Origin: Bacteriovoracaceae bacterium
Lineage (GTDB): Bacteria > Bdellovibrionota > Bacteriovoracia > Bacteriovoracales > Bacteriovoracaceae
Direction: 5' to 3'
Length of the DNA stretch: 64,000 nt
Assembly (NCBI GenBank): GCA_025210745.1
Contig: JAOARC010000038.1
Span: forward strand, 1 to 64,000
Under the pieces are notes generated by a model. It was given only the letters and a program-made list of their open reading frames with translations. It made no database searches and had not been told where the DNA came from. This document shows, piece by piece, positions 1 to 25,977 of the stretch. The translations under genes were made by a program, and so were the position numbers. The number at the start of each line of letters is the position of its first letter. The stretch's first letter is position 1.

Positions 1-245
1 GTATCTTTAACATCTACAGCTAGCACATCATCTGTTCTAAGCATTGAATGAGTATAAACTGCTAAAGTGTTATCATCTTCATCAAGCTCACTTAATATTT
101 CTTGGTTGTCATATATATATTTTCTTTCATATGAATTTGCAGAATGAACATGATCAGTAATTTCTTTTTTATACCTTCTTCCTACTGCATCATAATTATA
201 ACTTCCATGTGATGAGCTTAATCTGTTTCCTAGATTGTCATAAGT
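1..245 (-). pseudogene. Third Rhs YD-repeat fragment (orphan tip, partial, runs off window)
   Basis: The minus strand encodes YD-repeat sequence nearly identical to the large Rhs gene at 9751-18174 and the orphan at 4884-6587. Base 1 corresponds to base 10661 of the parent. The copy starts abruptly at 245, has no start codon, and continues past base 1, where its own C-terminal tip would lie. Relative to the parent, 195 bp are missing in frame: the SYNYDA motif is fused directly to YDAVGRR, with the repeat GCATCATAA at the joint. Some residues match the parent (HVHSANSYERK) and others match the orphan (LDEDDNTL), so it is a mosaic. Probably a silent tip cassette. Confidence 0.8.
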
Positions 246-4251: not shown

Positions 4252-4860
4252 TTAAAAAGAATAACCTAGTGCAAAGTTCAGATTAAAATCTCCAGTAAGC
4301 TCCCTAGAATCAATATTTAAATTATTTTGATTAATATTCGAGTAGTTTGCCATCACATATCCCAAACCAAAAATATAAGAAAAATTACTATCTCCGAAGT
4401 TACGCTCAGCATTTAAATTAAAAGCATAAATATAAGCATTATCTTTCTCATTTCGAGCGATATCTCCCATGAATTGATACTTTCCAACTCCAAATAAAAT
4501 ACTTGGTTTTATTCTAATTGAGTTCAATTCAAAAATATATCCTAAGCGACCAAGTAAATACGAGTGCTCAAGGGAGTAATGTTGCTGTGGACCAACTCCG
4601 TTAATAAACAACGTGTAGTTTTTACTTAGGGACATATAGCCTATGCCTAGAAAAAACTTACTACCTACAAGTAATCTTTGAACTTCGATTCCATACTGAC
4701 TTGTTTCACCGTGAGATTGAAGCTTCGAGCTTTCTGTATCTACAGATGATGCCGTTAAAGTAGGTTCATACTTTAAATATACTGAGTATGTACCTTGGGA
4801 GTAACTTGTCCCCACAAATATAAGCATTAACATTATAAAAATATTATACATTTTCACCAC
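4252..4860 (-). CDS. Outer-membrane beta-barrel-like protein behind orphan Rhs tip
   Basis: 202 residues. A Sec signal peptide (MYNIFIMLMLIFVGTSYS, using the Met at codon 4) precedes alternating hydrophobic/polar strands typical of a small barrel, ending in a C-terminal Phe (LGYSF) as outer-membrane proteins do. It begins 23 nt after the orphan Rhs stop at 4884 on the same strand, the usual position of a cognate immunity gene. A barrel would be an unusual immunity protein. It could instead be an unrelated surface protein carried in the cassette. Confidence 0.65.
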   Translation of the reverse strand: MVKMYNIFIMLMLIFVGTSYSQGTYSVYLKYEPTLTASSVDTESSKLQSHGETSQYGIEVQRLLVGSKFFLGIGYMSLSKNYTLFINGVGPQQHYSLEHSYLLGRLGYIFELNSIRIKPSILFGVGKYQFMGDIARNEKDNAYIYAFNLNAERNFGDSNFSYIFGLGYVMANYSNINQNNLNIDSRELTGDFNLNFALGYSF

Positions 4861-4883: not shown

Positions 4884-6587
4884 CTAGAATTTAACACCAA
4901 AAACACCAAGAATTTTTTCAGCAATCTTTATATTGACACCAACAATTGTTCTGGTAAGACTCCATGCTCCAGTAACAACACCAAAAGCAGTATGTCCAGT
5001 GCCACTAACAAAGCCACCAATATCACCTTTAAACAATGATGCTAAAGCGTGATCGACACCTCTTTTAGCTAAGGTAAATTCACTTTTAGACTGATCAAAG
5101 GTAAGATTTGGATTACCAAACTCAAACCAATCATTAATACTAGAATAAAGCTGATCATGAGAATAACAAGCTTCATCTAATTTATCGACTGGCTTTAATG
5201 GTGATCCAATTGGATTTCCATAACTATCATAACCACCACTTGGTCGAAAACCTTTTTGTGGAGCTTTGTTTTCGCTATTTCCACAATAGTAGCCATGTGT
5301 ATCAGGAGGAAACTTTCCTGATGGGTCGACTCTATTTATTGAGTTATTAAGAGCATATAAATATAAATTCACAACGGAGCTTGGGTTTATTAAACGGCCA
5401 GAAACAGGATCCTCCTGCATAAACCTACCAATCTCATTCATCATATACCTAGCCCTAAAATACATAAGCCCAGATTCATCATGTTCCCTATTAGTAAATC
5501 CATAACTAGTTTTAATAAGTGGATTTGAAGTAATATCGCTTCCAGCTGAATCAGCAATCTTCAAAACCTTACCAAAACTAGAATAAACATATCTTTGAAT
5601 TAGACTACCAGAAGAATCAACAATTTCAGAGATAGATCCAATTGCATCTTTAGTAAAAAAGTATGATCCAAGAGAAGCTATCTTTGTATCTTTAACATCA
5701 ACCGCTAACACATCATCAGTTCTAAGCATTGAGTGAGTATAAACTGCTAAGGTGTTATCATCTTCATCAAGCTCACTTAATATTTCTTGGTTGTCATATA
5801 TATATTTTCTTTCATATGAGTTTGATGTATTTATATGATCAGTAATTTCTTTTTTATACCTTCTTCCTACAGCATCATAAAAATAGCTATGAGTTTTAAT
5901 TAAAGAGTTATTCGTATACTCTTCAATTGAAGTTAATTGATTTTCTGAGTTGTAGTTATAATTTGTAAAATTTGTTGTATTAGCTTTATCCTGTCTAATA
6001 GTTAGGTTTCCATCATTGTCATGGACATAGTTATATTTATAATCGCTAGTAATCCTAGCTTTTTTAGGATCATAGTTATAACTTCCAGAAGATGAGCTTA
6101 ATCTGTTTCCTAAATTATCATAAGTAAATACTTCGTTTAAATAATCACCACTTGCTTCTGAATTACTTGCACTTGTTAATTGATTTAAATTGTCATAACC
6201 AAAGTTTTTGGATCCAAAGGTATTTGTTACACTTGTTCTATTTCCAAGAGCATCTCTTGTATAAGCAAATTGAGAGATTGGGTTATTATTTGTTTTTAAA
6301 TGATCAATATTTGTTAAGAATCCATTATCATCAACACTTATAACTGTTTTAGATCCAGGACGATTAATTTGTTTTAATCTATTTGCATTATCATAGATAA
6401 ATCCAAAAGATTCTCCCTTATGATTTGTAATACCAGTTAATCTATTAGCATTGTCATAAGAGTAGCTAAAGTTTCCATAAGGAGTATTTGTAGCTGTCTT
6501 TATTCCTTCATCATTATAAGTGTAGTTTAAAGTTGAACCAGGCATATCAGTATTTGCTACAGTTTCACTTGTAACAAAATAATCTGA
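4884..6587 (-). CDS. Orphan Rhs tip with phospholipase A2-like C-terminus, lacks own start
   Basis: About 390 codons of YD-repeat sequence match the C-terminal shell of the 2,807-residue Rhs protein, ending at RFMQEDP. From there the sequence is unique: DPSG junction, then a tip with YCGN, PVDKLDEACYSHDQLY and a hydrophobic Gly-rich end. The D..C..HD..Y helix with an upstream YCG loop resembles the phospholipase A2-like fold (Ca-loop plus catalytic His-Asp), so the predicted activity is membrane-lipid hydrolysis. The first Met (6545) is internal to the homologous region and has no ribosome binding site. Homology stops sharply at 6587. This is a displaced cassette that would be expressed only after recombination into the full-length gene. 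Confidence 0.8.
   Translation of the reverse strand, partial: SDYFVTSETVANTDMPGSTLNYTYNDEGIKTATNTPYGNFSYSYDNANRLTGITNHKGESFGFIYDNANRLKQINRPGSKTVISVDDNGFLTNIDHLKTNNNPISQFAYTRDALGNRTSVTNTFGSKNFGYDNLNQLTSASNSEASGDYLNEVFTYDNLGNRLSSSSGSYNYDPKKARITSDYKYNYVHDNDGNLTIRQDKANTTNFTNYNYNSENQLTSIEEYTNNSLIKTHSYFYDAVGRRYKKEITDHINTSNSYERKYIYDNQEILSELDEDDNTLAVYTHSMLRTDDVLAVDVKDTKIASLGSYFFTKDAIGSISEIVDSSGSLIQRYVYSSFGKVLKIADSAGSDITSNPLIKTSYGFTNREHDESGLMYFRARYMMNEIGRFMQEDPVSGRLINPSSVVNLYLYALNNSINRVDPSGKFPPDTHGYYCGNSENKAPQKGFRPSGGYDSYGNPIGSPLKPVDKLDEACYSHDQLYSSINDWFEFGNPNLTFDQSKSEFTLAKRGVDHALASLFKGDIGGFVSGTGHTAFGVVTGAWSLTRTIVGVNIKIAEKILGVFGVKF
5407..6587 (-). repeat. 1,181-bp Rhs core repeat, copy B
   Basis: Near-identical to 10382-11562, with the same length and therefore no net insertion or deletion. 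The left edge falls at the codons for EDP, just before the variable tip; the right edge falls at the codons for SDYFV. This is the homology that would let the orphan tip replace the tip of the main gene. Confidence 0.85.
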
Positions 6588-6646: not shown

Positions 6647-6694
6647 CAAAAAGCTATGCTTTTTGACTATTATTCCTTAAGCGTCAGCTTAAGG
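6647..6694 (-). terminator. Paired hairpins at the end of the four-helix-bundle gene
   Basis: Two perfect 8-bp hairpins: CCTTAAGC/GCTTAAGG (6675-6682 with 6687-6694, overlapping the stop codon) and CAAAAAGC/GCTTTTTG (6647-6654 with 6658-6665). The second ends in a T run on the minus strand, as an intrinsic terminator would. Confidence 0.5.
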
Positions 6695-7001
6695 ATTCTA
6701 TTAATTTATATAAATATGCTCCAAGTTTATCTGCTTGCTTATGAAGTCCTACTTTTGAATTAGCTAATATTAAAACCCCTTGAGTTTCTTTAGCTGAAGC
6801 ATAAGCTATTTGATAAAATCTTCTTTTTGCTCTCTTTGTTCTTTGAGCATTTCCTTCAACAAGGTTTAAAACAACAGAGCTAGAAGATCTTCTGATCTGA
6901 TCTTTAAGATAATACGGAAGCTTTAGCTTAAGAACTTCACAATATAGCTCATCAGCAAGATGTAATGATTTAAAGTTTGAGTCGAATCTAGTTTTTTGCA
7001 T
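6684..7001 (-). CDS. Four-helix bundle protein (23S rRNA intervening-sequence / S23 family)
   Basis: 105 residues with the family signature LKDQIRRSSSSVVLNLVEG followed by a basic segment, RRFYQIAYASAKE and a last helix. The family includes ORFs inside 23S rRNA intervening sequences and free-standing genomic copies. It also resembles the accessory protein Avd of diversity-generating retroelements, but no reverse transcriptase is nearby. The start has a good AAGGAA box. A long perfect hairpin lies just upstream (7016-7076) and two hairpins lie downstream, so the gene looks like a compact self-contained insert between the kinase remnant and the orphan Rhs tip. Function in the cell is not established; RNA binding is likely. 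Confidence 0.85.
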   Translation of the reverse strand: MQKTRFDSNFKSLHLADELYCEVLKLKLPYYLKDQIRRSSSSVVLNLVEGNAQRTKRAKRRFYQIAYASAKETQGVLILANSKVGLHKQADKLGAYLYKLIESLS

Positions 7002-7015
7002 AAGTACTTTCCTTT

Positions 7016-7076
7016 GTTAATGTTTTGAGCTTTTTTGCTCTCACAAAAAGTGAGTAAAAAAGCTCAAAACATTAAC
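7016..7076. repeat. 21-bp perfect inverted repeat upstream of S23-family gene
   Basis: Arms GTTAATGTTTTGAGC plus six T (7016-7036) and their exact complement (7056-7076) enclose a 19-nt centre that itself pairs CTCAC/GTGAG. In the transcript this would be a long hairpin about 10 nt before the ribosome binding site of the four-helix-bundle gene. Could be an element end, a terminator for upstream genes, or an RNA target of the protein. Confidence 0.7.
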
Positions 7077-7106
7077 CTACGAAAGTAAAAAACTTAGTAT
7101 AGAAAT

Positions 7107-7143
7107 ATTCCAAGGCACCGCATCCCGATTGGGAGCCTGGAAT
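7107..7143. repeat. Nested palindromic repeat, copy 1
   Basis: ATTCCAAGGC pairs with GCCTGGAAT around an inner TCCC/GGGA hairpin. It shares the core CACCGCATCCCGA with the element at 8577-8622, and the two bracket the kinase gene. REP/MITE-like. Confidence 0.5.
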
Positions 7144-7196: not shown

Positions 7197-8546
7197 TTAC
7201 TCGCCATTTCCTAACATTATAAAGTTACTTAGATTTAAAGTAATTTTTTCCCGAGTATCTTCTGGCAAGGGTAAGAACTTATTACTACTAACGCCTTCTG
7301 GCAAAACCTCACCTATAGTCATTCTAAATATTTCTAATCTCTCAAAATCTGTATAGTTATGCATATTAGCTTTTTCACCGATGAATAAACAAACAATAAT
7401 ATGACTTCCCACAACCTTTGATTCAACTACAAACCCTACGAAATCAGGAGAATCCCCGTCCGTTATTAACGGGCATCTAATTTGAGACTTTGCAATATCA
7501 TCCCCCAAACTAACAACTGAAGTTTGAATATATCTACCAAACGAAGGTGCAACTTCGGAAATAAACTTCTTAATAACTTTTATATAATTATTTCTTAGAG
7601 TTTGAAGACCAATCTGCTTCCGTTTTAGCTGCTCAACACTTAAAGAGTTAGCATGAAGAGTTAGTACAGACTTAGCCTTTTCGATATCACTTTTATTCTT
7701 GTCACTTATATTAGGAATTATACTCCTCAGGCTTTCTAGAGATTGCCATCGATTTTCAATTTCATTACGAAACCCAATATCAAACATCTGATTCCAGATA
7801 TCTTTATTAATAAATTTATTAACTTTATCTTGGATACCATCTCTTTGATGTGGCATTTGATTTTTTTCATCTATTAAAATTCGAGGATACTCTTTTGTAA
7901 GTAGAAAAAAAGCGATACCGACAATAAATGTAATATCACTCCTAAAGTCTACTTTTTGAGACGATCCAGAAGACAGTTCAGGAAGCCTAAGAAACCGATT
8001 ACCAAGCTCTTCTCCAACTTTGGTTTCAAACAAGCCATCATTTGAATGAGCTATTCCAAAATCGACTAACAATATCTCCTCTCCTCGCAGCATAATATTT
8101 AATGGTTTTATATCACGATGAACAAACTCATCTTTATGACATAGCTCTACTAAAGATATTAGCTGAACCAGGAATTTTGATATGTCACTCTCACTCATCT
8201 TTTGAGATGTAGTAAATTCTTGTAGGTCAATGCCTTCAATAAAGTCTGCAACATAATAAAGGTCTACTTGTTTATCTGCAAAAAGGTCAGAGTTAGATTC
8301 AATTATTTTAGGCACAACTTAAAAGTCTAAAGTCTTGCAAATACTAACTTCTCGATGAAACCTTTTTCTTTTTTCTAAACTTTCACAATTTTTTAATTTT
8401 TTTAAAAAGTATATTTCATTATCAGCATTTGAAACTTTAAAACCTATACCTTGTCCCCCCTCACCAACTCTCTTTATAATTCTATAGCCATAATATGATT
8501 CAAGCTCATCACTCATAGAGCTCCTTATTTTTATAAATCGTATCAA
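7197..8546 (-). pseudogene. Ser/Thr protein kinase interrupted by one in-frame TAA
   Basis: The N-lobe (8546-8322) has a glycine loop (VGEGGQG), the VAIK-type Lys (FLKKL) and the helix-C Glu (REVSICK). It stops at TAA 8319-8321. The same frame continues with no shift: VVPKII, hinge, HRDIKPLN catalytic loop, DFG, a LPEL replacement of APE, SDI, then a C-terminal domain of about 150 residues without recognised motifs. Together this is about 449 codons with the stop at the usual place between helix C and strand 4. A GTG at 8315 could restart translation but would give a kinase without ATP-loop or Lys. Either a nonsense pseudogene, readthrough, or a base error. Palindromic repeats flank it. Confidence 0.8.
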
Positions 8547-8735: not shown

Positions 8736-9107
8736 CTAATCAAGTTGTAAATCACAATCAAAAACTGTAATTTTTATACCTTCAGGGCATCCCTTTATAC
8801 CAACATTCACCAATACAGTATCTCCCTTTTGTATATGAGCTATCTTTTTCGCTCTTTTTACTATTCTTTCACATGAATCTAACGGTTTTTCCCAAATTTC
8901 CCTCTTCGCCCTAGGAGTAATTTCACTAATTTTTTTACACTTTTTTACGCTTGCCTTTTTCCTAAAAACTTTAACATTTGTGGTTTTAATTTTTTTTAAT
9001 AAAGCCTCATTAACTGTTTCCCGTACACCTCCTGTAGAAATACTCAACTCGAAGCTAAAGGCGTTATTAAATATTGCAATTAAAACAAAAAAATAAAGTA
9101 ATTTCAT
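8736..9107 (-). CDS. Small exported protein, third gene of the Rhs operon
   Basis: 123 residues. A Sec signal peptide (MKLLYFFVLIAIFNNAFS) is followed by a basic, helical domain with four cysteines (KKCKK, DSCER, KGCPE, FDCD) that could form two disulfides in the periplasm. Its start overlaps the stop of the preceding lipoprotein by 4 nt, so it is translationally coupled to it and through it to the giant Rhs gene. No family recognised. Periplasmic partner, immunity or secretion helper of the Rhs lipoprotein are all possible. Confidence 0.7.
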   Translation of the reverse strand: MKLLYFFVLIAIFNNAFSFELSISTGGVRETVNEALLKKIKTTNVKVFRKKASVKKCKKISEITPRAKREIWEKPLDSCERIVKRAKKIAHIQKGDTVLVNVGIKGCPEGIKITVFDCDLQLD

Positions 9108-9754
9108 ATATTATTATAAACCTCTTTCGCTATTTTAGTATGGACCGACGAGTTTGCACTATTTGGATTATTTACAAATGGCATTACAAATATCAATAAA
9201 GTTTGCCTAACATCAAGAATTTCATTATTGATCTCTGTAACACTATCTACTTTTTTATTAATAACTTTAGTAGTATATGATCTTTTCCCCCAATAAGGTA
9301 TCAATGCTAAAGAAATAAAATTCAGTGTTTGCCATACCTTATTAAAAGAGGATGCATTTTCCACAACATTGAACTCTATATGAAAATCAGACTGATCCTC
9401 TTTAACAACTTTATATGCATTCCCTTGTTTCTTTAAACTGGCAAAGACTTCACATACAATACGATAACCATAAGCTGTATTCGTAATAGCCATTTTTTGC
9501 ATTATCATGCCTGTCCTGCTTAGATCACAGCCATCATTCTTAGAAAGTTCTTTTATTAATTCATCGCTAGTCTTTATTATATGTTTATTCTTTCCAGTCT
9601 TTAAAACAACTTTAAAACTAATTTTTCTCTCAGGACTTTTTACCTTATGATTCTTCACTAAATGGCGACTATCCTTTACAAAAGAAGCACACCCTTGGAC
9701 AAAGAATAATAAAGACATTGTTAATAAATTTAATTGCTTCATTCTTATCATCAT
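9104..9754 (-). CDS. Lipoprotein coupled to the Rhs gene, candidate immunity protein
   Basis: 216 residues. Signal peptide with lipobox-like FVQGC near residue 22 (start MMIRMKQLNLLTMSLLFF), then a mature domain of mixed beta and helix with few cysteines and no recognised fold. The ATG overlaps the Rhs stop codon by 4 nt (9751-9754), the tightest coupling in the locus. This is the standard position for the immunity gene of the main Rhs tip; lipid anchoring would place protection in the periplasm, consistent with a membrane-active tip. The role is inferred from position. Confidence 0.7.
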   Translation of the reverse strand: MMIRMKQLNLLTMSLLFFVQGCASFVKDSRHLVKNHKVKSPERKISFKVVLKTGKNKHIIKTSDELIKELSKNDGCDLSRTGMIMQKMAITNTAYGYRIVCEVFASLKKQGNAYKVVKEDQSDFHIEFNVVENASSFNKVWQTLNFISLALIPYWGKRSYTTKVINKKVDSVTEINNEILDVRQTLLIFVMPFVNNPNSANSSVHTKIAKEVYNNI

Positions 9755-12700
9755 ATATTAAATCCTAGTATATCATTTTCGGGCTCCTTATCATCCAGAG
9801 CTTCTCCTGTCTTTGCTACAATTGTAGGTATAAGAGTACTAGGTAGTAAGAACAAATAAGCTTCTTTTTTAATGAAAGCACCTAAAGCCCCTCCAGGAGC
9901 CTTTGCTCCACTAAAAAAACTATAGCCTCCATATCCCCCTGTGATTGCTCCAGCAACAAGACCTGTAATAACCCCACGAGAGAATCCATCATCAAATGAA
10001 TCTCCTTTTAATGTACTAATTATACCTCCTGTTAATCCTCCGGTTAACGCCCCAACAAACGCCCCAGCCCCAATACCTGCCGTTGTACCAACAATCATAC
10101 CGACAACAGAACTCCCTGTAAATGATGCCACTGTTGGGGCTATCCCAGCAGACACAGCCCCACCAACTACTCCACCTAACGCTCCGGCTACTGCACCTAC
10201 AAGTATTCCTTCCAATATATTTCCACCTGTTAAAGCAGCAAAAGCACCTCCTAAAACTGCACCTACAATAGCTGCTGTAACAATAAATCGCCCATCTGGA
10301 TCAACATTCATAACCGGATTATTACCAGTATATATAAACTTATTATTAATTGTAATTGGATTAACTTTTACACCAGGATGCGGATCCTCCTGCATAAACC
10401 TCCCAATCTCATTCATCATATACCTAGCTCTATAATACATAAGCCCAGACACATCATGCTCTCTATTAGTAAATCCATAATTTGTTTTAACAAGTGGATT
10501 TGAAGTAATATCAATTCCAGCTGAATCAGCTACTTTTAAAATCTTACCAAAACTAGAATAAACATATCTTTGAATTAGACTACCAGAAGAATCTAAAATT
10601 TCAGAGATTGATCCAATAGCATCCTTAGTAAAAAAGTATGATCCAAGTGCTGCTACTTTTGTATCTTTAACATCTACAGCTAGCACATCATCTGTTCTAA
10701 GCATTGAATGAGTATAAACAGCTAGTAAGTCATCATTTTCATCAAGCTCACTTAAGATTTCTTGATTATCAAATACATATTTTCTTTCATATGAGTTTGC
10801 TGAATGAACATGATCAGTAATCTCTTTTTTATACCTTCTTCCTACAGCATCATAAAAATAGTTATGAGTTTTTATTAAAGAGTTATTTGTATACTCTTCA
10901 ATTGAAGTTAATTGGTTTTCACTATTGTAATTATAATTTGTAAAATTTAAATTATTCGCCTTCTCCTGTCTTATTGTTAGATTTCCATTATTATCGTGGA
11001 CATAGTTATATTTATAATCACTAGTTATCCTAGCTTTTTTAGCATCATAATTATAACTTCCATGTGATGAACTTAATCTGTTTCCTAAATTATCGTAAGT
11101 AAATACTTCGTTTAGATAGTCTCCAGTTGCTTCAGAGTTACTTGCACTTGTTAATTGATTAAGATTGTCATAACCAAAGCTCTTTGTTCCAAAAGTACTA
11201 GTTACACTTGTTCTATTTCCAAGAGCATCTCTTGTATAAGCAAACTGAGATATTGGATTATTGTTTGTTTTTAAATGATCTATATTTGTTAAAAATCCAT
11301 TATCATCAACAGTTATAACTGTTTTAGATCCAGGCCTGTTGATTTGTTTTAATCTATTTGCATTATCATAAATAAATCCAAAAGATTCTCCCTTATGATT
11401 TGTAATTCCAGTTAATCTATTAGTGTTATCATAAGAGTAGCTAAAATTTCCATAAGGAGTATTTGTAGCTGTTTTTATACCTTCATCATTATAAGTGTAG
11501 TTTAATGTAGAACTAGGCATATCAGTATTTACGACTGTTTCACTTGTAACAAAATAATCTGATCCAATTTTTTCATAAGTATATGAGATATTTGAATCAC
11601 TATCAGATATACTTGTTATATTTTCATTTTCATCATAGACGATGTTATAGATATTATCTGGTAAGATCTTTTTTACCATTCTATTCATTGTATCGTATTC
11701 ATATGATTTATTATTTCCGTTTGGATCAATCTCAGAAATTAAATTTCCATTAACATCATACCCCATTGATGTCTCAAACCCTAATGGAGAGGTTTTCTTT
11801 ACTAGACGATCATTAACATCATATTCAAATATAGTTTCATTTCCATGAGGATCAATAATTTTTGTTAGATTTCCGTTGTAATCATATTCGTAGGCTGTGA
11901 TATCACCTACTGGATTAGAGCTACTTATTCCCGTTTCAACTCTAATTAGTCTATTAAAGTCATCATAATCATATGCAGTTATAATATTATTTGGGTCAAT
12001 TTTTTGGGTTATGTTTCCAGCATTATCACGAACGTAACTAGTTTGCTCTCCCATAGGACTAATCCTCTTAGCGAGGTTTCCTGTTATAGGGTCATACTCA
12101 AAAGTCGTAATCTCACCTTCGTCATTAGTAATGGTATGTACAAGGCCATTAGGATAGTATGTTCTAGTTACTGTTTGATTATTTTCATCTGTTTGAGATA
12201 AAAGATTTCCAGCGATGTCATAACTATAACTTTTTGTCTTATTATTTACATCTTTAGTTGTAACAGGATATCCATACTCATTATAAGTATACTCTTCTTT
12301 TTTATCTATGGATGAATCATACTTTTCTAGAAGATCACCTTGCTCATTATATAAGAAAGTCGTATAGCTTCCATCATTTTTAATGATCTTAGTTGGACGT
12401 CCCTTAAAATCTCTTTCGATATTAGTTTCTCTTCCCTCTGCATCAATAATTTTAGTTACAAATCCATCCAAATCTTCAAGAAGTTTAGTTTCTACTCCTT
12501 TAGCATCAGTAAATAATTTTGCTAGCTCATTTTCATCATCTTCATTTTGATAATTTTGAAGCTCACCATTGTTTGCAAGACTATTAGATAATGAATCTGT
12601 AATTGTCTCTCCAACTGAAGTTTCAGAGTTATCAGGAGCAATGACTTTAGATAATCTTTGCCAGTCATTATACTCATAGGCCTGTCTATTTCCTCTTTGG

Positions 12701-15700
12701 TTAAATTCTTCAGTGATATATCCTCTTTCGTTATATACAAATGATCGAGAAGATCCATCGCTAAAATCAATTCTAGTTAGTTTCCCATCACCGTAAGTAA
12801 ATGATGTTAACTTTCCAGTTGGATCAACAAATGTATCTAGCAGTCCTGATGAATAAGTTAGAGTACTTTTTCTTCCTGTATAATCTACGATTTCAAAAAG
12901 GTATCCATCATTATTGTAGTTAAAATCAAATCTATTATTATTCTTATCAATTGAAGAAATTTGTTTTCCTAAAGAGTTAAACTCAACCTTTGATCCATCT
13001 CTGTATACTCTTTCAAATGATCCATCTAAATTTTTCTTTAGGGTTGTATTTGAATCAGCGATTGATTTATAAGTTTTTATACCTGAACCTAAAGAATTGA
13101 AATTAACTTTTCTAATTCTTTTATTAGCTTGATCTAATATTAATAGATTATTATTTGAATCTAATGCAATCTTTTTTGGATTACAAATAGACACTGTTAA
13201 CGCTGCATCACCATCTTTTACATTCAGCTGCCCAGATTGACATAGATTATTTCCAGCAACCTGAGATGTTGTATTGTTTATAAGATCAAGTCTTACAACT
13301 CTATGGTTATTTGTATCTGCAACATAAAGATAAGAATTATCTTCATCTAAAGCAAGCCCATGTGGGTTTCTAAGACTAAGTTTATTTAAAGTATTAGTAT
13401 CTAAAGGTCCAGAGATCCTATCTCTACCAGCAATTGTTGATATTTTGCCATTAGTATCGATTCTTCTAATAAGCCCATTTTCAGAAGATATGTATAATCT
13501 TCCACCACTATCAGCAACAATTCCTCTTGGATGATAAATAGAAGTACTTATGGCATCAACATTACTAAGTGAATCAACAGGATCAACAGTTCCCTGATTT
13601 CCAGCAATATCAGTTACAATATTATTATCAACATCAACTTTTCTAATGAGGTTGTTTCCAGTATCAGCAACGTAATAAATATTTGATTCTGTTAAACTTG
13701 GAACAAAGTCTTCAGGTTTATTAAAGCCTGATGTTGTCAATGAACCTGATGCATAAATTGACTTAGGAATAGATCCACTTCCTTGCATTATTGGTGCACA
13801 TCTCGTTGTTTCTGGTAACCAGTACGGATCTGTTCTAACATCTTTTTTCTTATTACTAATAAAATAACTAGGTGTTGATAAGTCACAATTTTGACCAATC
13901 TGCTCTTGACAATGAGGCTGTATAAGTCCCCAAAAACCACTTATTAACCCCGTATACACTAATGGATCTGGAGACTTCATAGTTCCAGAAATTAGAGTGT
14001 TATCACTAAAAATTGCTCCTAGATTATCTAAAAAAATATTTTTATCATTATTAAAATAAAGTTGAGTTATTTTTTTAGATATAACTTCGTCGTATAAAAC
14101 TCGACGGCAATACCAATTATGTACTGTTGAAGAATAAGAACCAAATGTGTTAGTAGATCTATAATAAATTAAATTTCCAGTATTTCCTACGCTCACAGAA
14201 TATTTATTTAGCTCTCCATCTTCTTCGACTACATTTGTCTGAAGATCAACAACTTGAATATTAGACTTATTATCAACATATTTAATTTCATTATTAAAAT
14301 AATTAAATACACTAATCCCCTCTGTGTCGTGGACTATGGTTTCAATAGAGTTATCTAAAACGTATGAAGTTATATTTCCATCTGTTTCTTCAATCGTTAT
14401 TTTATCATTTTGTGGATTCAAAATCTCTTGTGTAAGACCTAATTTCCAACCTTGTCCAAACTCAGAATTCTTTTTATTTTGCACTAATACTCTTGACTGA
14501 AGATCTTCGGGGAAAACTGTATTAAACAAAGTCTGATCTTGTCTTATCCATCTTGTTTTTCTTCCAAAAAGACTTTTTGTTCTTACTCTTGTTGTACTTT
14601 TAACAAAATGCTTATATTCGATTTCATAAGAAGATCTAGCAAAGTAGTTTTCAGAGTTCAATGAAGCTAAATCCATTGCATAAGATACTATTCCTTGCTT
14701 TGGAGCATTTGGAGCTTGCATATTAACTTCGCCTGAAGCAATATCTGCAATAAAAAATTCTGACTTAATGTTTTTAGGCGTTGTCCAGACTTGCTGAACT
14801 GTATTTGCACTTAAACTTGACACAAATCCTGCTTGTGCCTGCTTATCTCTAGATATTTGATAATTTGATAAATTAAATATATTAGATACAATTACATTTG
14901 GAGATGCCCATGAACTCTTATAAATAAAATTAGGTGCAAAATCTTCTCCAAATGTTTTATAACTAGGCAGTCTAATGGATGTAGATAAAGACCCCTTAGC
15001 TGTATTAAAGCCAGGTGTTACAGAGGACTCACTTACCATAGGTGACACATCAAGCCCATAAGGAGCTGCAAAAATTTCAGAAAAATGAGTTATACCATCT
15101 CCTGGAGTAGTTACAATTTGATTTCCTTGTACTATAGCAGCACCATCAATTTCCCACAGGCCTGTTGAGCTATTTTTAGACATTATGACTAGTTTTGTTC
15201 CTGCTTCAAAATCATTCACATTTGGTAAAGTAACTTGAACTGGTTCTGAAAAAGTTAACCCTGATGGTTCAAGAGCAAATACTGTATCAGGTCTTGCTCC
15301 TTCAAAAACCTCAATAGAAGTTTTATCGATAGGTATTTCAATCATATTAATAGATTGCTCCACTCCGTCAGGAAAGTTTGCTGCATCAGCTGGTATCTGT
15401 AAACTCACACCAGGTGCATGACTAGATGTAACAGTTACTGCTTGTCCTTCAATAATATTAGTTTGCGTTCCATCCAGTAATAAAGGAGAAAGATATATAA
15501 CTCTTTCCATTACATTTCGCTCTTTTAAGCCAACGGAATAGTTTATAGCCACAGCAGAGTATTGTTTTTGTCCCATTGTAAATGCTTCACTTACTGTAGA
15601 GCCATCAATCAGTATTCTTTGATCTCCAATAGCTGGATCAGAAATATTAAATACACCGTTTGTATCCGTTACTACAGATTGACCAGAACTTACAATGCTA

Positions 15701-18174
15701 ACTGTCACCCCAGGTATTGGAGTATCATTAACATCTTTTATCACACCAGCTAAAGTTGTATCTGCTTTATATTCCAGCTCATAAGACTCATCAAGGTTAA
15801 GCTGTGAATTTTGAGCTTCGATTGTCACATTATTTGTAAAATTTAACTGAGCCTCAAAAGACCCATCTGCATTAGCATTCACAGTAGTATTATTAAAGAA
15901 ACCTCCACTAAGATCGATTTCTAATCCTGAAAGTGCAGCACCTTGCGCTCCAATAACATTAATCTTACCGTTATGGCCTACTAGTGATACAAGGTCTATT
16001 CTAATTAGCTTTAAAAAGACTTCATAAGATAAAGTATAAGAGCTTTGATTTCCAATAAGGTCTGTTGCTACAATTAATAAGTCTACATCACCTTCACCTT
16101 GTTCTACTCGATAAGAGTTAAATGAAAGCTTATCTGCTGCAATATCAACATTTTGTCCATTAATTGTAACAGATGCGAGTTCTTCATTTGATAATGCACT
16201 TACTGTATGCATCGTTGTTCTTAAAACAGAATTATCTTCAGGTACGAACCCTGATAATATAGGACCTACTGTATCGAGATTAACTGTTAATGTTCCTAAA
16301 ATACTTTCATTTCCAGCAAGATCAAATGCTTTATAGGTAATATTGTTCTGTCCCTCTATTAAGTTAAAAGAAAAATTATCTCTTGCAGCCATTATAAAAT
16401 TATCATTATTATAAATCTCAACTTTATCTAAGTTCTGCTCTGTAATATCTAATAAAAGCGTATATGAGGATGAATTAACAGTTTCATTATCTTGGGATAA
16501 TAAGGAAACAATTGGAGCTGTTGTATCTTTAATGACACTGATTGTTTTTGAATCCGTATTTCCAACTTTATCGTAAGCTATAACTTCAATCGTATTATTG
16601 ATATCTGAAACAGAAATAATCTCATCGATATTTACTGAAGATACTTCCTTTACAAGGTTTCCATTTAAAATGATTTCATATTTTTCAAAATAATCATCAC
16701 TAACTGTCCCAATAATAGTAAGTTCATTTGAATTTATATAAAGATTATTTGCGTTTGCTAAATGTAATACTGGATCTGTCGTATCTAAAATGATTGTTTT
16801 ATAAGCAACTTTTTTATTTCCAACTTTATCGAAAACCTCTACTCTTACTTCGTTTGATCCTTCTACTAAAGTAAGATTCTGAGTAATGTTTTTATCTACC
16901 GTTTCAACAATAAGATTGTCAGCTAAGTAAACTTGTAGTTTATCAAAATAAAGGTCATTTGCTGATATACTTAAATCATATGAAGCATTTACAACATACT
17001 CTTTATCCATATCCATTAAAATTGTAGGCATTGTAGAATCTGTACAATAATCAATCTTTATTGTACCAAGTTGATCAAAATTTGGATCAATAAAGATTTT
17101 TTCTAATTCAAAGTCATAATAAACTGATACTTGATTATTATCTACTAAAGCTTGTAAAGTCGATGGATCAATATATCTTGATTTAACGGCAAAATTATTT
17201 TCAAAGTCCATAGTAGAAGTGGCAAGACGGCCTAATCTAGATAAACCGTCTCCATAATCGCCACTTCCAAGATCAATATTAATCCCACCCACTAGATTAA
17301 TAATATCGTGATATCCATAACCTACTTCATCTTCATTTCCAGTTGGAATGGTTGAGTTTTCATCATATAAAACTCCTCCAATAACCAAGGGTCTATTGCC
17401 GTGAATTTGCCTAACTTTATCGACCACCATTTGAGGGGTAATAAGATAGTTGTAATCTCTTCCTCCAACGATAACATCACGCCATGAAATATCATCAGAA
17501 ATACAATGCTTAACAAAAGTTTTCTTCTCAGCATTCTGTCTATCCACAACAGCAGTTATTCCTTCTGGTAATTTAGCACAGATATCTTGTTCATCAGCAA
17601 TGAATACAATTGCTAGAGCGGCATCTTCTCTAAATATCCCTTGCATTTTTGAAGCAGCAAGCTTTGCTGGAGTTAGCCCTTCCATCAAAGATAACATTCC
17701 CACTTCTCCACCATCAGTTTGTCCTTGTTGATGCGGAGAAAAAATCTTTAAATCTAAATATGTTTTAATTTGTGAAACGCTAAGCTCGCTAGACTTTAGA
17801 ACGTGAGGCTCATTATTTTTTTGGTACATAATACCCGACTGACTCCCATCAGGTGAATGAGCAAGCATAACCCCAATATTATAATCTACTCCATCTGGAA
17901 GAGAGTTTAATAAATGATGAAATCCATTAGCAATATTCGACCTTTCTTGCTTTATAGATCCAGAAGTATCTGGAACTATAAGTATGTCTAACTTTCTATT
18001 TACATTAGTTGATTCAATCTTATGATAATCTTCATAACAAATAGGACTTACTTGCACATCAGCAGGCTTTGGATTATTTGCAAAAGAATCATTTACTGCA
18101 TTTGTAACATTATTATCTGAAGAATCTTGACAAGAAATCGCAAATATTAATAAAAAAACAAATAAGAACTTCAT
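9751..18174 (-). CDS. Giant Rhs/teneurin-like lipoprotein (vWA, Ig, NHL, YD repeats)
   Basis: 2,807 residues. Lipoprotein-type signal (LLIFAISC, Cys about 15). von Willebrand A domain about 58-340 with MIDAS DTSGS. Ig-like repeats about 390-725 with recurring ILDTTDP-type linkers. CarboxypepD-reg-like domain about 800-860 (GVTVSIVSSG). ZU5-like segment about 915-985. Beta-rich region to about 1500. NHL repeats about 1508-1680 (YVADTNNHRVVRLD). YD shell about 1738-2595. Rhs junction EDP, then DPDG, then a tip of about 210 residues that is mostly Gly/Ala/Val hydrophobic. The NHL plus YD order matches teneurins and bacterial toxin-complex relatives. Likely surface-anchored, with the YD shell enclosing the C-terminal tip. 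Two coupled genes follow. A divergent 280-bp spacer precedes it. Confidence 0.85.
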   Translation of the reverse strand: MKFLFVFLLIFAISCQDSSDNNVTNAVNDSFANNPKPADVQVSPICYEDYHKIESTNVNRKLDILIVPDTSGSIKQERSNIANGFHHLLNSLPDGVDYNIGVMLAHSPDGSQSGIMYQKNNEPHVLKSSELSVSQIKTYLDLKIFSPHQQGQTDGGEVGMLSLMEGLTPAKLAASKMQGIFREDAALAIVFIADEQDICAKLPEGITAVVDRQNAEKKTFVKHCISDDISWRDVIVGGRDYNYLITPQMVVDKVRQIHGNRPLVIGGVLYDENSTIPTGNEDEVGYGYHDIINLVGGINIDLGSGDYGDGLSRLGRLATSTMDFENNFAVKSRYIDPSTLQALVDNNQVSVYYDFELEKIFIDPNFDQLGTIKIDYCTDSTMPTILMDMDKEYVVNASYDLSISANDLYFDKLQVYLADNLIVETVDKNITQNLTLVEGSNEVRVEVFDKVGNKKVAYKTIILDTTDPVLHLANANNLYINSNELTIIGTVSDDYFEKYEIILNGNLVKEVSSVNIDEIISVSDINNTIEVIAYDKVGNTDSKTISVIKDTTAPIVSLLSQDNETVNSSSYTLLLDITEQNLDKVEIYNNDNFIMAARDNFSFNLIEGQNNITYKAFDLAGNESILGTLTVNLDTVGPILSGFVPEDNSVLRTTMHTVSALSNEELASVTINGQNVDIAADKLSFNSYRVEQGEGDVDLLIVATDLIGNQSSYTLSYEVFLKLIRIDLVSLVGHNGKINVIGAQGAALSGLEIDLSGGFFNNTTVNANADGSFEAQLNFTNNVTIEAQNSQLNLDESYELEYKADTTLAGVIKDVNDTPIPGVTVSIVSSGQSVVTDTNGVFNISDPAIGDQRILIDGSTVSEAFTMGQKQYSAVAINYSVGLKERNVMERVIYLSPLLLDGTQTNIIEGQAVTVTSSHAPGVSLQIPADAANFPDGVEQSINMIEIPIDKTSIEVFEGARPDTVFALEPSGLTFSEPVQVTLPNVNDFEAGTKLVIMSKNSSTGLWEIDGAAIVQGNQIVTTPGDGITHFSEIFAAPYGLDVSPMVSESSVTPGFNTAKGSLSTSIRLPSYKTFGEDFAPNFIYKSSWASPNVIVSNIFNLSNYQISRDKQAQAGFVSSLSANTVQQVWTTPKNIKSEFFIADIASGEVNMQAPNAPKQGIVSYAMDLASLNSENYFARSSYEIEYKHFVKSTTRVRTKSLFGRKTRWIRQDQTLFNTVFPEDLQSRVLVQNKKNSEFGQGWKLGLTQEILNPQNDKITIEETDGNITSYVLDNSIETIVHDTEGISVFNYFNNEIKYVDNKSNIQVVDLQTNVVEEDGELNKYSVSVGNTGNLIYYRSTNTFGSYSSTVHNWYCRRVLYDEVISKKITQLYFNNDKNIFLDNLGAIFSDNTLISGTMKSPDPLVYTGLISGFWGLIQPHCQEQIGQNCDLSTPSYFISNKKKDVRTDPYWLPETTRCAPIMQGSGSIPKSIYASGSLTTSGFNKPEDFVPSLTESNIYYVADTGNNLIRKVDVDNNIVTDIAGNQGTVDPVDSLSNVDAISTSIYHPRGIVADSGGRLYISSENGLIRRIDTNGKISTIAGRDRISGPLDTNTLNKLSLRNPHGLALDEDNSYLYVADTNNHRVVRLDLINNTTSQVAGNNLCQSGQLNVKDGDAALTVSICNPKKIALDSNNNLLILDQANKRIRKVNFNSLGSGIKTYKSIADSNTTLKKNLDGSFERVYRDGSKVEFNSLGKQISSIDKNNNRFDFNYNNDGYLFEIVDYTGRKSTLTYSSGLLDTFVDPTGKLTSFTYGDGKLTRIDFSDGSSRSFVYNERGYITEEFNQRGNRQAYEYNDWQRLSKVIAPDNSETSVGETITDSLSNSLANNGELQNYQNEDDENELAKLFTDAKGVETKLLEDLDGFVTKIIDAEGRETNIERDFKGRPTKIIKNDGSYTTFLYNEQGDLLEKYDSSIDKKEEYTYNEYGYPVTTKDVNNKTKSYSYDIAGNLLSQTDENNQTVTRTYYPNGLVHTITNDEGEITTFEYDPITGNLAKRISPMGEQTSYVRDNAGNITQKIDPNNIITAYDYDDFNRLIRVETGISSSNPVGDITAYEYDYNGNLTKIIDPHGNETIFEYDVNDRLVKKTSPLGFETSMGYDVNGNLISEIDPNGNNKSYEYDTMNRMVKKILPDNIYNIVYDENENITSISDSDSNISYTYEKIGSDYFVTSETVVNTDMPSSTLNYTYNDEGIKTATNTPYGNFSYSYDNTNRLTGITNHKGESFGFIYDNANRLKQINRPGSKTVITVDDNGFLTNIDHLKTNNNPISQFAYTRDALGNRTSVTSTFGTKSFGYDNLNQLTSASNSEATGDYLNEVFTYDNLGNRLSSSHGSYNYDAKKARITSDYKYNYVHDNNGNLTIRQEKANNLNFTNYNYNSENQLTSIEEYTNNSLIKTHNYFYDAVGRRYKKEITDHVHSANSYERKYVFDNQEILSELDENDDLLAVYTHSMLRTDDVLAVDVKDTKVAALGSYFFTKDAIGSISEILDSSGSLIQRYVYSSFGKILKVADSAGIDITSNPLVKTNYGFTNREHDVSGLMYYRARYMMNEIGRFMQEDPHPGVKVNPITINNKFIYTGNNPVMNVDPDGRFIVTAAIVGAVLGGAFAALTGGNILEGILVGAVAGALGGVVGGAVSAGIAPTVASFTGSSVVGMIVGTTAGIGAGAFVGALTGGLTGGIISTLKGDSFDDGFSRGVITGLVAGAITGGYGGYSFFSGAKAPGGALGAFIKKEAYLFLLPSTLIPTIVAKTGEALDDKEPENDILGFNI
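10382..11562 (-). repeat. 1,181-bp Rhs core repeat, copy A (in main gene)
   Basis: The parent copy of the repeat at 5407-6587, with equal length and only scattered substitutions. It ends at the EDP codons, so the DPxG motif and tip are outside the shared segment. Confidence 0.85.
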
Positions 18175-18454: not shown

Positions 18455-18913
18455 ATGAAACTAATATTAATACTTATGCTTGCCTTATTTTCAATGACAA
18501 CTTTTGCTAAAAAAAATATCTGGACTCAATGTGGTATAGGTGCAATGGTATTTAGCAAAACAGGTTGGGCAGCAGCAACGTCAAATATTACGTGGGATCT
18601 AGGAACAACAGCAACTTCAAGTCAAGTATCTTCAGATGACCAATGTGCAGGAAAATCAGCTTCTGTCGCGAAGTTTATCTTTAGAAATTATGCAAAAGTA
18701 GAAGAAGACACTGCAATGGGTGGTGGAAAATATACAACTGCAATGCTAGATATTTTAAAATGTGATCATCTTGTTAGAGAAAAAATTATTAAAAACAGTA
18801 AATCTTATCTCAGAACAGATTTAAACGGTACAAATAAAAAAGCTGAAAACTATTTTAATAGCTTAATCCAAAATATTGAAAGCAACTTCAAGCATAAGTG
18901 TCAAACAGTTTAA
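18455..18913 (+). CDS. DUF3015 family exported protein
   Basis: 152 residues. Signal peptide MKLILILMLALFSMTTFA, then the DUF3015 pattern: a CGIGAMVF opening, alternating Thr/Ser-rich strands (WAAATSNITWDLGTTATSS) and a DQCAG motif, with a helical Cys-containing C-terminal half. Very strong ribosome binding site (AAGGAGG, 5 nt before ATG). Function of the family is unknown. Its last 16 nt overlap the next gene, a DUF4105 protein, so the two are one transcription unit. First gene right of the divergent spacer with the Rhs gene. Confidence 0.85.
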   Translation: MKLILILMLALFSMTTFAKKNIWTQCGIGAMVFSKTGWAAATSNITWDLGTTATSSQVSSDDQCAGKSASVAKFIFRNYAKVEEDTAMGGGKYTTAMLDILKCDHLVREKIIKNSKSYLRTDLNGTNKKAENYFNSLIQNIESNFKHKCQTV

Positions 18914-20730
18914 ACTATAAAACACAGTATTACTTTATATTAGTAATACTGTGTTTACTATTATCAAATCTAGCCATTGCAAACCCTTTACATATTAAAC
19001 AAAAACTAAAAGTCCTATCTCAAAAAAAAACTTGGTCAAATCTTCTTCACTATAGCAACCATAAAAGTGATATAAAAAGTAAAAGCTTTTTTCTATCCAA
19101 AGAAGGAATGTTTAACTTAGAAAGTGAAATCGTCTCTAATTATCATTCTTTTTTTATAAAAAAAAATATAAAAAAAATATGTCGCTTTCGAGCAAGATAT
19201 CTGTGGCTAAGCAAGCAACTTAAATACACAACAACTCTTCTATCGAAGTGTAAACATTATAAAAATTGGACTAAAAATAAATCTATAAAATCAGTAAGCC
19301 TTATATTTGCATCCGGATACCTAGATAACCCTGCATCATTTTTTGGCCATCCTATGCTAAGGTTTAATTTTACAAATAAAGATGCTCTAGGGTTGCTTAA
19401 CATTGGCATAAATTATGGAGCGCTTACTCCAGCCTCTCCTCACCCAATTAAGTATGTTATAAAAGGCCTACTTGGTGGGTATTCTGCATCTTTTTCGGAA
19501 GCAAAGTTTTTTCATACTGTTGCAACTTATGCAGATAACGAACTTAGAGATTTATGGGAATACAAGCTAAGACTTACACCTTGGGAAAAAGAACTTTTAA
19601 TATCTCATGTATGGGAATTACTTGGTGTGAAGTTTCCTTATTATTTTATCTCTGATAACTGTGCCTTAAGAATGGCAAAAGTTCTTGAACTTATTATTAA
19701 TAAAAAACTTATGAATTCATTTTCCCCAGCTGCAGTACCTCATGACTTACTAAATAGATTATATAAAACAGGCAAAGTATCACAAATAAATTATATTCCA
19801 TCAACACAAAGTGAAATGAGTAACTACTATAATCACTTAACTGAATATGAAAAAAATATTTTTAAAAGATCTATTTCAACTCCAAAAAAAATAAAAGCTC
19901 TTCTAAAAAATTTAAATAATAAACAAAAAATTCATATTCTTGACTCCCTTATAAAGTACTATACATTTGTAAATACTAAATCTCCAAGCTCTAAGTCCAA
20001 AAAAAATAGAAGAAATATTCTTCTTCTAAGATCCCAAATTGAAATAAAAAGTCATTCTTTTTTTACAGCTACACCTCCTAAAGGCTTACATCAAGGACAA
20101 CCTCCGGCAGCATTAAAAATTGGCCTTGGAAAGCTTCAACAAAACAGTTTTATGTTTTTTGGAGTAAGAGGCGCATACTATGACTTAGTCTCCCCTGTAC
20201 TCGGACATAATCTTAACTCTGAATTAATTATGGGGCAAGTATATGCTAATATATACGCAAACAAGCTACATCTAGAAGACCTTACTCTTCTTTCAATAAA
20301 ATCTCTAAATCCATCTAATACTGGATTGCCTTTAGATGACGCTCTTGCATGGAATATCAAAGCTTCATTTAGAAGTGCCTTTAACAACTCAAAAAAGATT
20401 TTACTTGATCTTGCACCTGGTATTGGAAAATCTTATAAATCTAAAGATCATTCATTATTTTATATCTTCATTGATTCATTAATAACATCGGAAAAAAGAA
20501 TAAGAGGAATTAACTTAGGGCCAAAGGCCGGTTTTGTTATTAATAGCTCTAAATTGCTAAGATCAAAGTTAGAGCTTGCCCAATATCACAATATACACAA
20601 GCAAAGAAAAACTAATACTGTTTCATTGGAAACGAGAATTATTAATAAAAAATATCACGACTATCAAATCAACATAAAGTCTTGGCAAGAATATACACAA
20701 TATAGCATTATGAGTAATTTCTATTTTTGA
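18898..20730 (+). CDS. DUF4105 domain protein, exported
   Basis: 610 residues. Hydrophobic signal segment at about 10-28 (YYFILVILCLLLSNLAIA). The DUF4105 core spans about 135-260, with LIFASGYLDNPASFFGHP and the YYFISDNCALR motif. The C-terminal half (about 390-610) is beta-rich, like an outer-membrane or surface domain. Conserved His and Cys residues in the core could be catalytic, but no activity is established. The chosen start at 18898 lies inside the end of the DUF3015 gene; it gives a proper signal peptide. Probably acts at the envelope together with its neighbours. Confidence 0.85.
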   Translation: MSNSLNYKTQYYFILVILCLLLSNLAIANPLHIKQKLKVLSQKKTWSNLLHYSNHKSDIKSKSFFLSKEGMFNLESEIVSNYHSFFIKKNIKKICRFRARYLWLSKQLKYTTTLLSKCKHYKNWTKNKSIKSVSLIFASGYLDNPASFFGHPMLRFNFTNKDALGLLNIGINYGALTPASPHPIKYVIKGLLGGYSASFSEAKFFHTVATYADNELRDLWEYKLRLTPWEKELLISHVWELLGVKFPYYFISDNCALRMAKVLELIINKKLMNSFSPAAVPHDLLNRLYKTGKVSQINYIPSTQSEMSNYYNHLTEYEKNIFKRSISTPKKIKALLKNLNNKQKIHILDSLIKYYTFVNTKSPSSKSKKNRRNILLLRSQIEIKSHSFFTATPPKGLHQGQPPAALKIGLGKLQQNSFMFFGVRGAYYDLVSPVLGHNLNSELIMGQVYANIYANKLHLEDLTLLSIKSLNPSNTGLPLDDALAWNIKASFRSAFNNSKKILLDLAPGIGKSYKSKDHSLFYIFIDSLITSEKRIRGINLGPKAGFVINSSKLLRSKLELAQYHNIHKQRKTNTVSLETRIINKKYHDYQINIKSWQEYTQYSIMSNFYF

Positions 20731-24231: not shown

Positions 24232-25977
24232 TTAATCATAATTATATTTCAAAGTTACATATGGTGTTCTTGAGTAATTTTTTTTCTTTAAAGTTTTTCT
24301 ACCAGTTTCACTAAAAAGATAAAGTTTATGTTTTGCTCTAGATGCAATAACATAAAGTAGTTTAGCAACTTCACGTGAAGTATCAATTGTATTATCGAAC
24401 ATAATTCCCCAATGGGGTAACATTCCTTCAAGTAGCCCAAATACAATTACAACAGCATACTCCTCTCCCTTAACTCCATGACAAGAGTTTATTACTACCC
24501 CTTCATTTTCTTCAAAGAAACTTTTAAAGACTAGAGTATTGTTAATAATATTGAAGTCTTGAACTTTCTTTTTACTCCCCTCAATAAACTTATCATGCTT
24601 TTCCTTTAAAATTGGAAAATCGTTCATGTTCTTATTTGTTAATACCTCTATAAGAGTACCAAAGGATTCTTGTAAATATTCAAACCCATCTTCTTTGTTG
24701 GAACGAGATTTATTTGCTTTTTCAAGAAAAGATAAGGTTGTCATTTCTTTAAGATCTTCTCTTCCAATAATATTAGAAAGTTCTGTAATAGCTTCTCTAG
24801 CCCACATATTTCTTCTTCTAAAATTTCGAGGAGAAGAATCTGTTAGAAATATTTTTGCAAAATAGAACCATACATTATCTCTATTTTTAGAAATTGGAGA
24901 TAATCCAGGAGAATCAATCGATATATGTGGGGCTTTAGCTTTAATATCTCTAGCAATTGGATTAACAAGATCCCATTTAGGAGCAATGATACAAATATCT
25001 GATTCTTTATACCCTTTAGAAGTTTCATTTTGTATAACTTTTATTATTTCATCACTTAATGACTCTTTAGATATAGAATAGTTGTACTTAATTACAGATT
25101 CCAGTTCCTTATCTATTTTTGTAACTATTTGTCCCCTCTTTCCCATTATATCAGAATAATAATCAATTATTTTTTGACTTGAACGATAACATCCATTCAG
25201 CTTTATTTCTAAGAATGTCCTATCGAGTAGATTGCTCAATTCATTTTTATGTAATACATATCCACCTAATGTTGTATAAATTGCTTGATCAGGATCTCCA
25301 ACAAAAGCAAACTTAGTCTCTGGTGATTGTTTTGCAATAAGGCCCATAATTTCATATTGCAAAACTTGGGTGTCTTGATATTCGTCTATAATTACCCAAT
25401 TAAACAATTTTGCTAAGAAACCACAAGCCCTAGGCTCTTCTTTTAAAAATTTAAAGCATATATAAATTAAAAAGTCATAATCTATTAGCTTATTCTTTTT
25501 CAATTCTTGATGATATTTACTCAATATCTTCAACTTTACAGAATTACTCTCTAGATACTGCCCCTTTATATTTAGTTTTGTATTTACACTTTCGTAATAT
25601 GGTATGCCTTCTTCTTTTTTGAACACATCCATTATACTACTTGCTTGAAACTCATCTGCTAACGTAAAACCATGTCTTAATTCTTCAATTTCAGACCTAA
25701 AACTTCTGGTTATCCACTCAAGGCAAAATGAATGGATAGTACCGATCCAGAGTTTTTTAGGTACCTCAACTAACTGGTTTACACGCTCTTTAACTTCTTC
25801 TGCTGCTCTATTTGTGAAAGTCAAGACTGCAATATGACCATTTAAATCTTCATTCTCAATCAATTTAATAACTTTTGAACATATAGCTCTCGTCTTACCA
25901 CTGCCAGGACAAGCGGTTACTAACACATCATCTTCACAGTTTACAAAGTCTAATTGTTCTTCATTTAATTTAATCAT
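24232..25977 (-). CDS. gajB: GajB-like UvrD/Rep-family helicase (Gabija defence)
   Basis: 581 residues with superfamily 1A motifs in order: ACPGSGKTRA (Walker A, about 22), TFTNRAAEEVKERV (Ia), VIIDEYQDTQ (II, about 194), FVGDPDQAIYT (III), INSCHGVKGEEY (V, about 507), YVIASRAKHKLY (VI). Its start overlaps the stop of the OLD-family nuclease by 4 nt. In Gabija, GajB binds and uses nucleotides and works with the GajA nuclease complex to block phage. About 90 residues longer than the first described GajB. It could also be called the helicase partner of a class 2 OLD nuclease. Confidence 0.8.
   Translation of the reverse strand: MIKLNEEQLDFVNCEDDVLVTACPGSGKTRAICSKVIKLIENEDLNGHIAVLTFTNRAAEEVKERVNQLVEVPKKLWIGTIHSFCLEWITRSFRSEIEELRHGFTLADEFQASSIMDVFKKEEGIPYYESVNTKLNIKGQYLESNSVKLKILSKYHQELKKNKLIDYDFLIYICFKFLKEEPRACGFLAKLFNWVIIDEYQDTQVLQYEIMGLIAKQSPETKFAFVGDPDQAIYTTLGGYVLHKNELSNLLDRTFLEIKLNGCYRSSQKIIDYYSDIMGKRGQIVTKIDKELESVIKYNYSISKESLSDEIIKVIQNETSKGYKESDICIIAPKWDLVNPIARDIKAKAPHISIDSPGLSPISKNRDNVWFYFAKIFLTDSSPRNFRRRNMWAREAITELSNIIGREDLKEMTTLSFLEKANKSRSNKEDGFEYLQESFGTLIEVLTNKNMNDFPILKEKHDKFIEGSKKKVQDFNIINNTLVFKSFFEENEGVVINSCHGVKGEEYAVVIVFGLLEGMLPHWGIMFDNTIDTSREVAKLLYVIASRAKHKLYLFSETGRKTLKKKNYSRTPYVTLKYNYD

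Follow-up and report, generated by a model that had tools for sequence, protein, structure and literature searches.

A teneurin-like lipoprotein of the Bacteriovoracaceae with a predicted integrin-like head and downstream tip cassettes

Teneurin-like proteins (TLPs) of bacteria were defined in 2026 as polymorphic toxins with diverse tips and downstream immunity genes (Raoelijaona et al., 2026, PMC13018210). According to the main text of that study, a TIP domain is present in 96% of TLPs and those of Gram-negative bacteria are exported as lipoproteins, with delivery stated to be unknown. Three of the tips tested there inhibit E. coli; the bacterium is permeabilised by a hydrophobic tip if this is exported, and growth returns with one immunity gene. 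The same text proposes bacterial teneurins as ancestors of the animal neuronal receptors. Two other described systems are relevant to the locus reported here. In enterobacterial rhs loci C-terminal tips are displaced, and a dissociated core has the same sequence as the attached one (Jackson et al., 2009, PMC2935791). In Bdellovibrio the protein Bd0875 is a surface-exposed predation adhesin (Tyson et al., 2024, PMC11003981).

The locus and its teneurin-like body

The window (the whole stretch of 64,000 nt that was analysed) forms the start of contig C16 in a fragmented 2.72-Mb assembly of 50 contigs that is 88% complete. A first-pass annotation had placed here a 2,807-codon gene followed by two genes, each overlapping its predecessor by 4 nt; its coordinates, the codon count and both overlaps (ATGA at the junctions of the main gene with g2 and of g2 with g3) were recomputed and agree (Table 1). 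It had further described a lipoprotein signal, Ig-like repeats, NHL repeats and a YD shell. The lipobox is read directly in the sequence (LIFAIS-C15-Q) and the repeats were recovered by Pfam, the Ig-like ones as three Glucodextran_B stretches. Additional to that description are a transthyretin/carboxypeptidase-regulatory domain and a second, truncated core with another tip.

Table 1. Features of the locus (window coordinates; residue numbers are those of the main protein)
Feature	Coordinates	Strand	Details and evidence
TLP/Rhs lipoprotein gene	9751..18174	-	2,807 aa
Lipoprotein signal peptide, lipobox FAIS-C15-Q (aa 1-15)	18130..18174	-	sequence; lipoboxes also in vWA homologues
MIDAS vWA head within small beta domain (aa 44-380)	17035..18045	-	homologue alignment, model, fold search
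MIDAS motif D69-T-S71-G-S73	17956..17970	-	D, S, S invariant in 13 homologues
Three Ig-like (Glucodextran_B) domains (about aa 385-715)	16030..17022	-	Pfam, 5e-14
Transthyretin/carboxypeptidase-regulatory-like domain (aa 807-856)	15607..15756	-	below Pfam cut-off; seen in homologues too
Putative FN-plug and shell start (about aa 1050-1475, inferred boundaries)	13750..15027	-	aa 780-1960 model against TLP 9ifo
NHL propeller (aa 1480-1694)	13093..13737	-	NHL 1e-13, TEN_NHL 5.5e-12, both above cut-off; 9ifo/9pt5 match spans NHL
YD/RHS shell (about aa 1700-2628)	10291..13077	-	RHS repeats 6.8e-50; 20-row core alignment
Conserved shell Arg and two Asp-Pro motifs (R2584, D2597, D2625), putative autoproteolysis site	10291..10431	-	invariant in 20 aligned cores
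Variable tip, 179 aa	9751..10290	-	22% Gly, 19 GxxxG, three hydrophobic segments
g2, putative lipoprotein immunity gene, 216 aa	9104..9754	-	4-nt overlap; homologue after another TLP tip in L054
g3, small exported protein, 123 aa	8736..9107	-	4-nt overlap, signal peptide
Orphan cassette 1, truncated YD core	5407..6587	-	89.8% DNA identity to main gene; dN/dS 0.14
Orphan tip 1, PLA2-like, CYSHD motif	4884..5315	-	homologous tip in L187, weak match in L053
Exported beta-barrel-like partner of orphan tip 1	4252..4860	-	homologous to L187 partner, z 7.7
Orphan cassette 2, 5' part, running off contig	1..245	-	88-93% DNA identity to main core

The YD shell lies C-terminal to the NHL repeats in the same frame, and the model suggests a putative FN-plug before them. 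The earlier view of NHL plus YD as a teneurin-like arrangement is upheld by comparison with known structures. The best PDB sequence matches of the body are to the bacterial TLP 9pt5/9ifo (1.7e-34 with the single sequence), and a 19-row profile gave 2.2e-63 for the TLP, 2e-30 for teneurin-4 and about 2e-31 for T6SS Rhs proteins. When a model of residues 780-1960 was compared by Foldseek, the top 13 matches were fly, human and mouse teneurins and the TLP (E 4e-32 to 4e-22), with 2e-30 for the TLP against 2e-15 for the T6SS Rhs proteins. This model aligns over about 1050 columns with 9ifo, a chain modelled from the plug onward according to the TLP paper, at a TM-score that is low (0.26) because the modelled piece is truncated and multi-domain. 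The window protein and BiTLP (9pt5/9ifo), as the latter is presented in the main text of Raoelijaona et al. (2026), have in common the order of TTR, a plug (putative in the window protein), NHL and YD shell, lipoprotein export, the Arg/Asp/Asp self-cleavage motif (with 13 residues from Arg to Asp in both), a polymorphic tip and a gene directly downstream. The window protein is thus a form of the TLP kind already described. Animal teneurins share the ordered body of TTR, plug (here putative), NHL and YD but are transmembrane receptors with an external Tox-GHH end, and have neither lipobox nor vWA head. The main text of the TLP paper lists six phyla, Bdellovibrionota not being among them, and makes no mention of vWA domains, Bdellovibrio or displaced or orphan tip cassettes, whereas the window has both a MIDAS head and such cassettes. 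What is added here is the presence of TLPs in the Bacteriovoracaceae, the head of predicted integrin-beta fold and the displaced-tip cassettes.

The T6SS Rhs effectors (RhsA 7q97, Tse5 8cp6 and Tse15) also have the YD shell and the self-cleavage motif, and one of them, Tse5, is a membrane-acting toxin. They differ from the window protein, to which they are the weaker structural match; it has a Sec/lipoprotein export route and, as the first-pass annotation had noted, no PAAR/T6SS adaptor: its Pfam matches include no PAAR or VgrG N-terminus. The T6SS sheath gene VipA was found in 0 of 125 genomes of the family (the control was positive), which makes delivery by a T6SS very unlikely, and this route was rejected.

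The MIDAS head

The vWA domain at the head of the protein gave no match in Pfam or PDB sequence searches and fold prediction was therefore used. The first 385 residues can be aligned with 12 relatives, and D69-x-S71-x-S73, D194/E195 and Y353 are invariant in the 13 homologues of the head. The AlphaFold model (pLDDT 79) matches integrin-beta headpieces (E about 1e-7 to 1e-8), the SpaC pilus adhesin and the inter-alpha-inhibitor vWA (best 3.5e-8, prob 1.00). On the model, then, the TLP head has an integrin-beta fold, and the MIDAS-bearing vWA domain proposed from the letters alone is corroborated by both motif and predicted fold.

This head resembles the MIDAS adhesins Bd0875 and Bd1483 (Tyson et al., 2024), which likewise have a lipobox and a DxSxS MIDAS domain set into a small beta domain to which both ends contribute; the lipobox and the DxSxS vWA fold are both present in the window protein, and the conserved small-domain Tyr of Bd0875 (Y349) corresponds to Y353. 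The likeness is one of published features, and the window head differs in being fused to a teneurin-like toxin body. Such a fusion was seen in only two of about 19 full-length homologues, the window protein and one from another genus (locus L052), whose heads group together in the tree (support 0.97). Relatives of the head elsewhere in the family are usually separate lipoproteins in which it is followed by RCC1-like repeats. These MIDAS-vWA lipoproteins with RCC1-like repeats (L052, 1875-2957, minus strand, and L035-L044) are widespread in the Bacteriovoracaceae, are candidate contact adhesins and are not described in the literature consulted.

The first-pass annotation had suggested a possibly predatory host. 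The genome belongs to the GTDB family Bacteriovoracaceae, which has predators among its members and contains genomes labelled Halobacteriovoraceae, Halobacteriovorax and Bdellovibrio sp. MAGs; the host is a marine bacterium and predation is a trait of members of its family.

Tips, partner genes and displaced cassettes

It had been proposed that the tip is variable and that the genes coupled downstream are exported, and homologues lacking either tip variation or a coupled gene were named as what would speak against this. Across the family the tips are mostly unrelated beyond a conserved DPxG motif, and most do have exported partners. Sixty-nine tips following this motif were found at 40 loci, and since these include a second Rhs clade with a shorter motif, the statistics apply to the family's Rhs/TLP tips at large, of which the vWA-bearing form is only a part. 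Gly-zipper or hydrophobic tips number 25 (including that of the window), HExxH tips six and PLA2-like tips three, the last assigned below Pfam cut-offs, and Tlde1 (4.8e-10), DUF4329 and DUF6973 are represented once each. The Tlde1 domain, which targets peptidoglycan, is an Rhs tip at L176 (4603-5001), in a family without T6SS.

A partner gene starts within -20..+35 nt of the tip stop in 57 of 66 cases. An N-terminal hydrophobic stretch or lipobox was found in 45 of 53 partners (85%) and 26 of 88 control genes (30%; Fisher p=1e-10), a crude count over genes of at least 90 aa with unbiased start choice, in which signal peptides are not separated from membrane anchors. These recurrent export or membrane signals, as read from sequence, suggest the cell envelope as the site of action. 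Similar tips had similar partners in three of 15 tip pairs (0.06 expected, p=2e-4), and the partners in the other 12 had no detectable similarity at the threshold used. All three PLA2-like tips (those of the window orphan, L053 and L187) precede an exported protein of about 200 aa with a terminal aromatic residue, which may be a small outer-membrane barrel; homology between the partners of the window orphan and of L187 is clear (z 7.7) and does not, by sequence, extend to the third.

The attached Gly-zipper tip of the window is probably a membrane-active polypeptide, and it is probably a toxin whose partner is an exported immunity gene. The candidate for the latter, g2, belongs to a wider lipoprotein family with members also away from tips, and the idea of a family confined to tips was rejected since relatives occur elsewhere. 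No family or recognisable kin was found for g3, which is linked to the system by position and signal peptide alone; a relationship to the 113-aa gene behind orphan 2 found no support on comparison.

A 1,182-nt piece of core in an open frame shares strand and contig with the main gene and lies about 3 kb downstream of it. Its identity to the main core is about 90% throughout and ends at the GGATCC that encodes the DP motif, where the tip changes abruptly (Gly-zipper in the main gene, PLA2-like in orphan 1). Between the two cores dS is 0.47 and dN/dS 0.14, which indicates that both copies evolved as coding sequence during most of their divergence. The arrangement of truncated cores and alternative tips downstream on the same strand is that of the enterobacterial rhs loci, in which, however, the cores are identical (Jackson et al., 2009). 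The dS of 0.47 and the DNA identity of 89.8% reject a recent displacement with identical cores in the window; the displacement would be older, or the donor a diverged strain. To our knowledge, the enterobacterial proteins that undergo such displacement have neither NHL nor vWA parts. The start of the window overlaps that of a 6.1-kb contig (C23, locus L045) by exactly 75 bp, and the array probably extends into C23, which carries a Gly-zipper tip together with its lipoprotein partner, a further tip and a degraded core; the join falls in repeated sequence. Downstream same-strand cassettes of similar layout are present in three relatives (G054, G024 and G062).

In other Rhs clades long series of tips occur at a spacing of roughly 0.9 kb (L173 in G115:C13, L174 in G047:C6 and L175 in G050:C13), each tandem cassette consisting of an Rhs tip and a membrane-protein partner. 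Two further genes of the window lie on the minus strand between g3 and orphan cassette 1. A Ser/Thr protein kinase gene (7197-8546) is interrupted by one in-frame TAA (8319-8546 / 7197-8315) and is either degenerate or the product of an assembly error. Just upstream of the cassette is a gene for a 23S rRNA intervening-sequence (four-helix bundle) protein (6684-7121), preceded by a long inverted repeat (TTTTGAGCTTTTTTACTC...GAGCAAAAAAGCTCAAAA).

Mode of action and neighbouring genes

We consider it likely that the product of the locus is a polymorphic toxin of the TLP kind that is anchored at the surface and swaps its tips; to judge from the sequence, it is most likely contact-dependent and directed at the envelope. 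Toxicity, immunity, autoproteolysis, contact trigger, target and surface exposure are what we infer for the window system, as follows. The protein would take the Sec route of export and be held in the membrane through the lipid at its N-terminus, and the membrane-proximal MIDAS head and Ig-like domains would hold or sense a contacted cell. The C-terminal tip would lie enclosed by the putative plug, the propeller and the YD shell, and may be released by the shell's own Asp/Arg protease; the Gly-zipper tip would then act on the contacted cell's envelope, while g2, an exported lipoprotein whose translation is coupled to that of the toxin, would shield the producer. New tips would enter when homologous recombination takes place within the shared core, and the previous tip would be pushed downstream with its partner gene as a cassette. 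A TLP of a predator lineage whose adhesion head is integrin-like offers a testable hypothesis of delivery, by contact through the head, and the tip cassettes indicate that TLPs diversify in the manner of rhs genes. A more specific scheme, in which the MIDAS head senses the gripped cell and gates release of the capsuled toxin, and the downstream spare cassettes of tip and immunity gene recombine into the expression site, is tentative and we rather doubt it in full; if true, such a head-gated weapon would be a single molecule that both adheres to prey or kin and delivers a toxin.

The Bd0875-like head favours contact with prey, and the polymorphism of cassettes and partners favours kin conflict. 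The protein might accordingly be an effector of predation, its head gripping prey as Bd0875 does and its tip damaging the prey envelope, with the downstream genes accessory or self-protective and no part played in kin competition. The resemblance of the MIDAS head to a predation adhesin (Tyson et al., 2024), the predators in the host family and the envelope-acting tip types, which would suit periplasmic entry into prey, are in keeping with this. We nevertheless regard it as unlikely, since polymorphic tips, partners specific to each tip and the displacement of cassettes are typical signs of conflict between kin or competitors, the MIDAS head is confined to two of the full-length homologues and predation is established for members of the family rather than for the window organism itself. 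It is less probable still that vWA, Ig, NHL and YD parts serve purely in adhesion or signalling and that the hydrophobic tip serves as a structural end or for docking to a membrane. An integrin-like head, the role of animal teneurins as adhesion receptors and a Gly-zipper tip with no recognisable catalytic motif would all agree with an adhesin, but PLA2-like, metalloprotease-like and Tlde1 domains occupy the tip position elsewhere in this locus and in relatives, and most tips have an exported partner gene.

That the tip is fixed and the orphan cassettes are products of random decay or of assembly seems very improbable. The assembly is indeed fragmented, the nearby kinase gene is interrupted and pieces of core on C23 are degraded; against this, orphan 1 lies on one contig in an open frame under purifying selection (dN/dS 0.14), and the same layout recurs downstream in the three relatives named above.

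In a check for conserved neighbourhoods none of the flanking genes recurred near the TLPs of relatives. Divergent from the TLP gene and adjoining it (18455-20730, plus strand) are genes for a DUF3015 protein and an Lnb_N periplasmic protein. Directly after TLP tips in L055 and L059 lie exported genes of DUF3015-like appearance, and these two partners are homologous to each other (3e-18). Further along the window (24232-28085, minus strand) a coupled pair of genes for an OLD-like ATPase/TOPRIM nuclease and a UvrD-like helicase has, by Pfam only, a likeness to Gabija-type defence.
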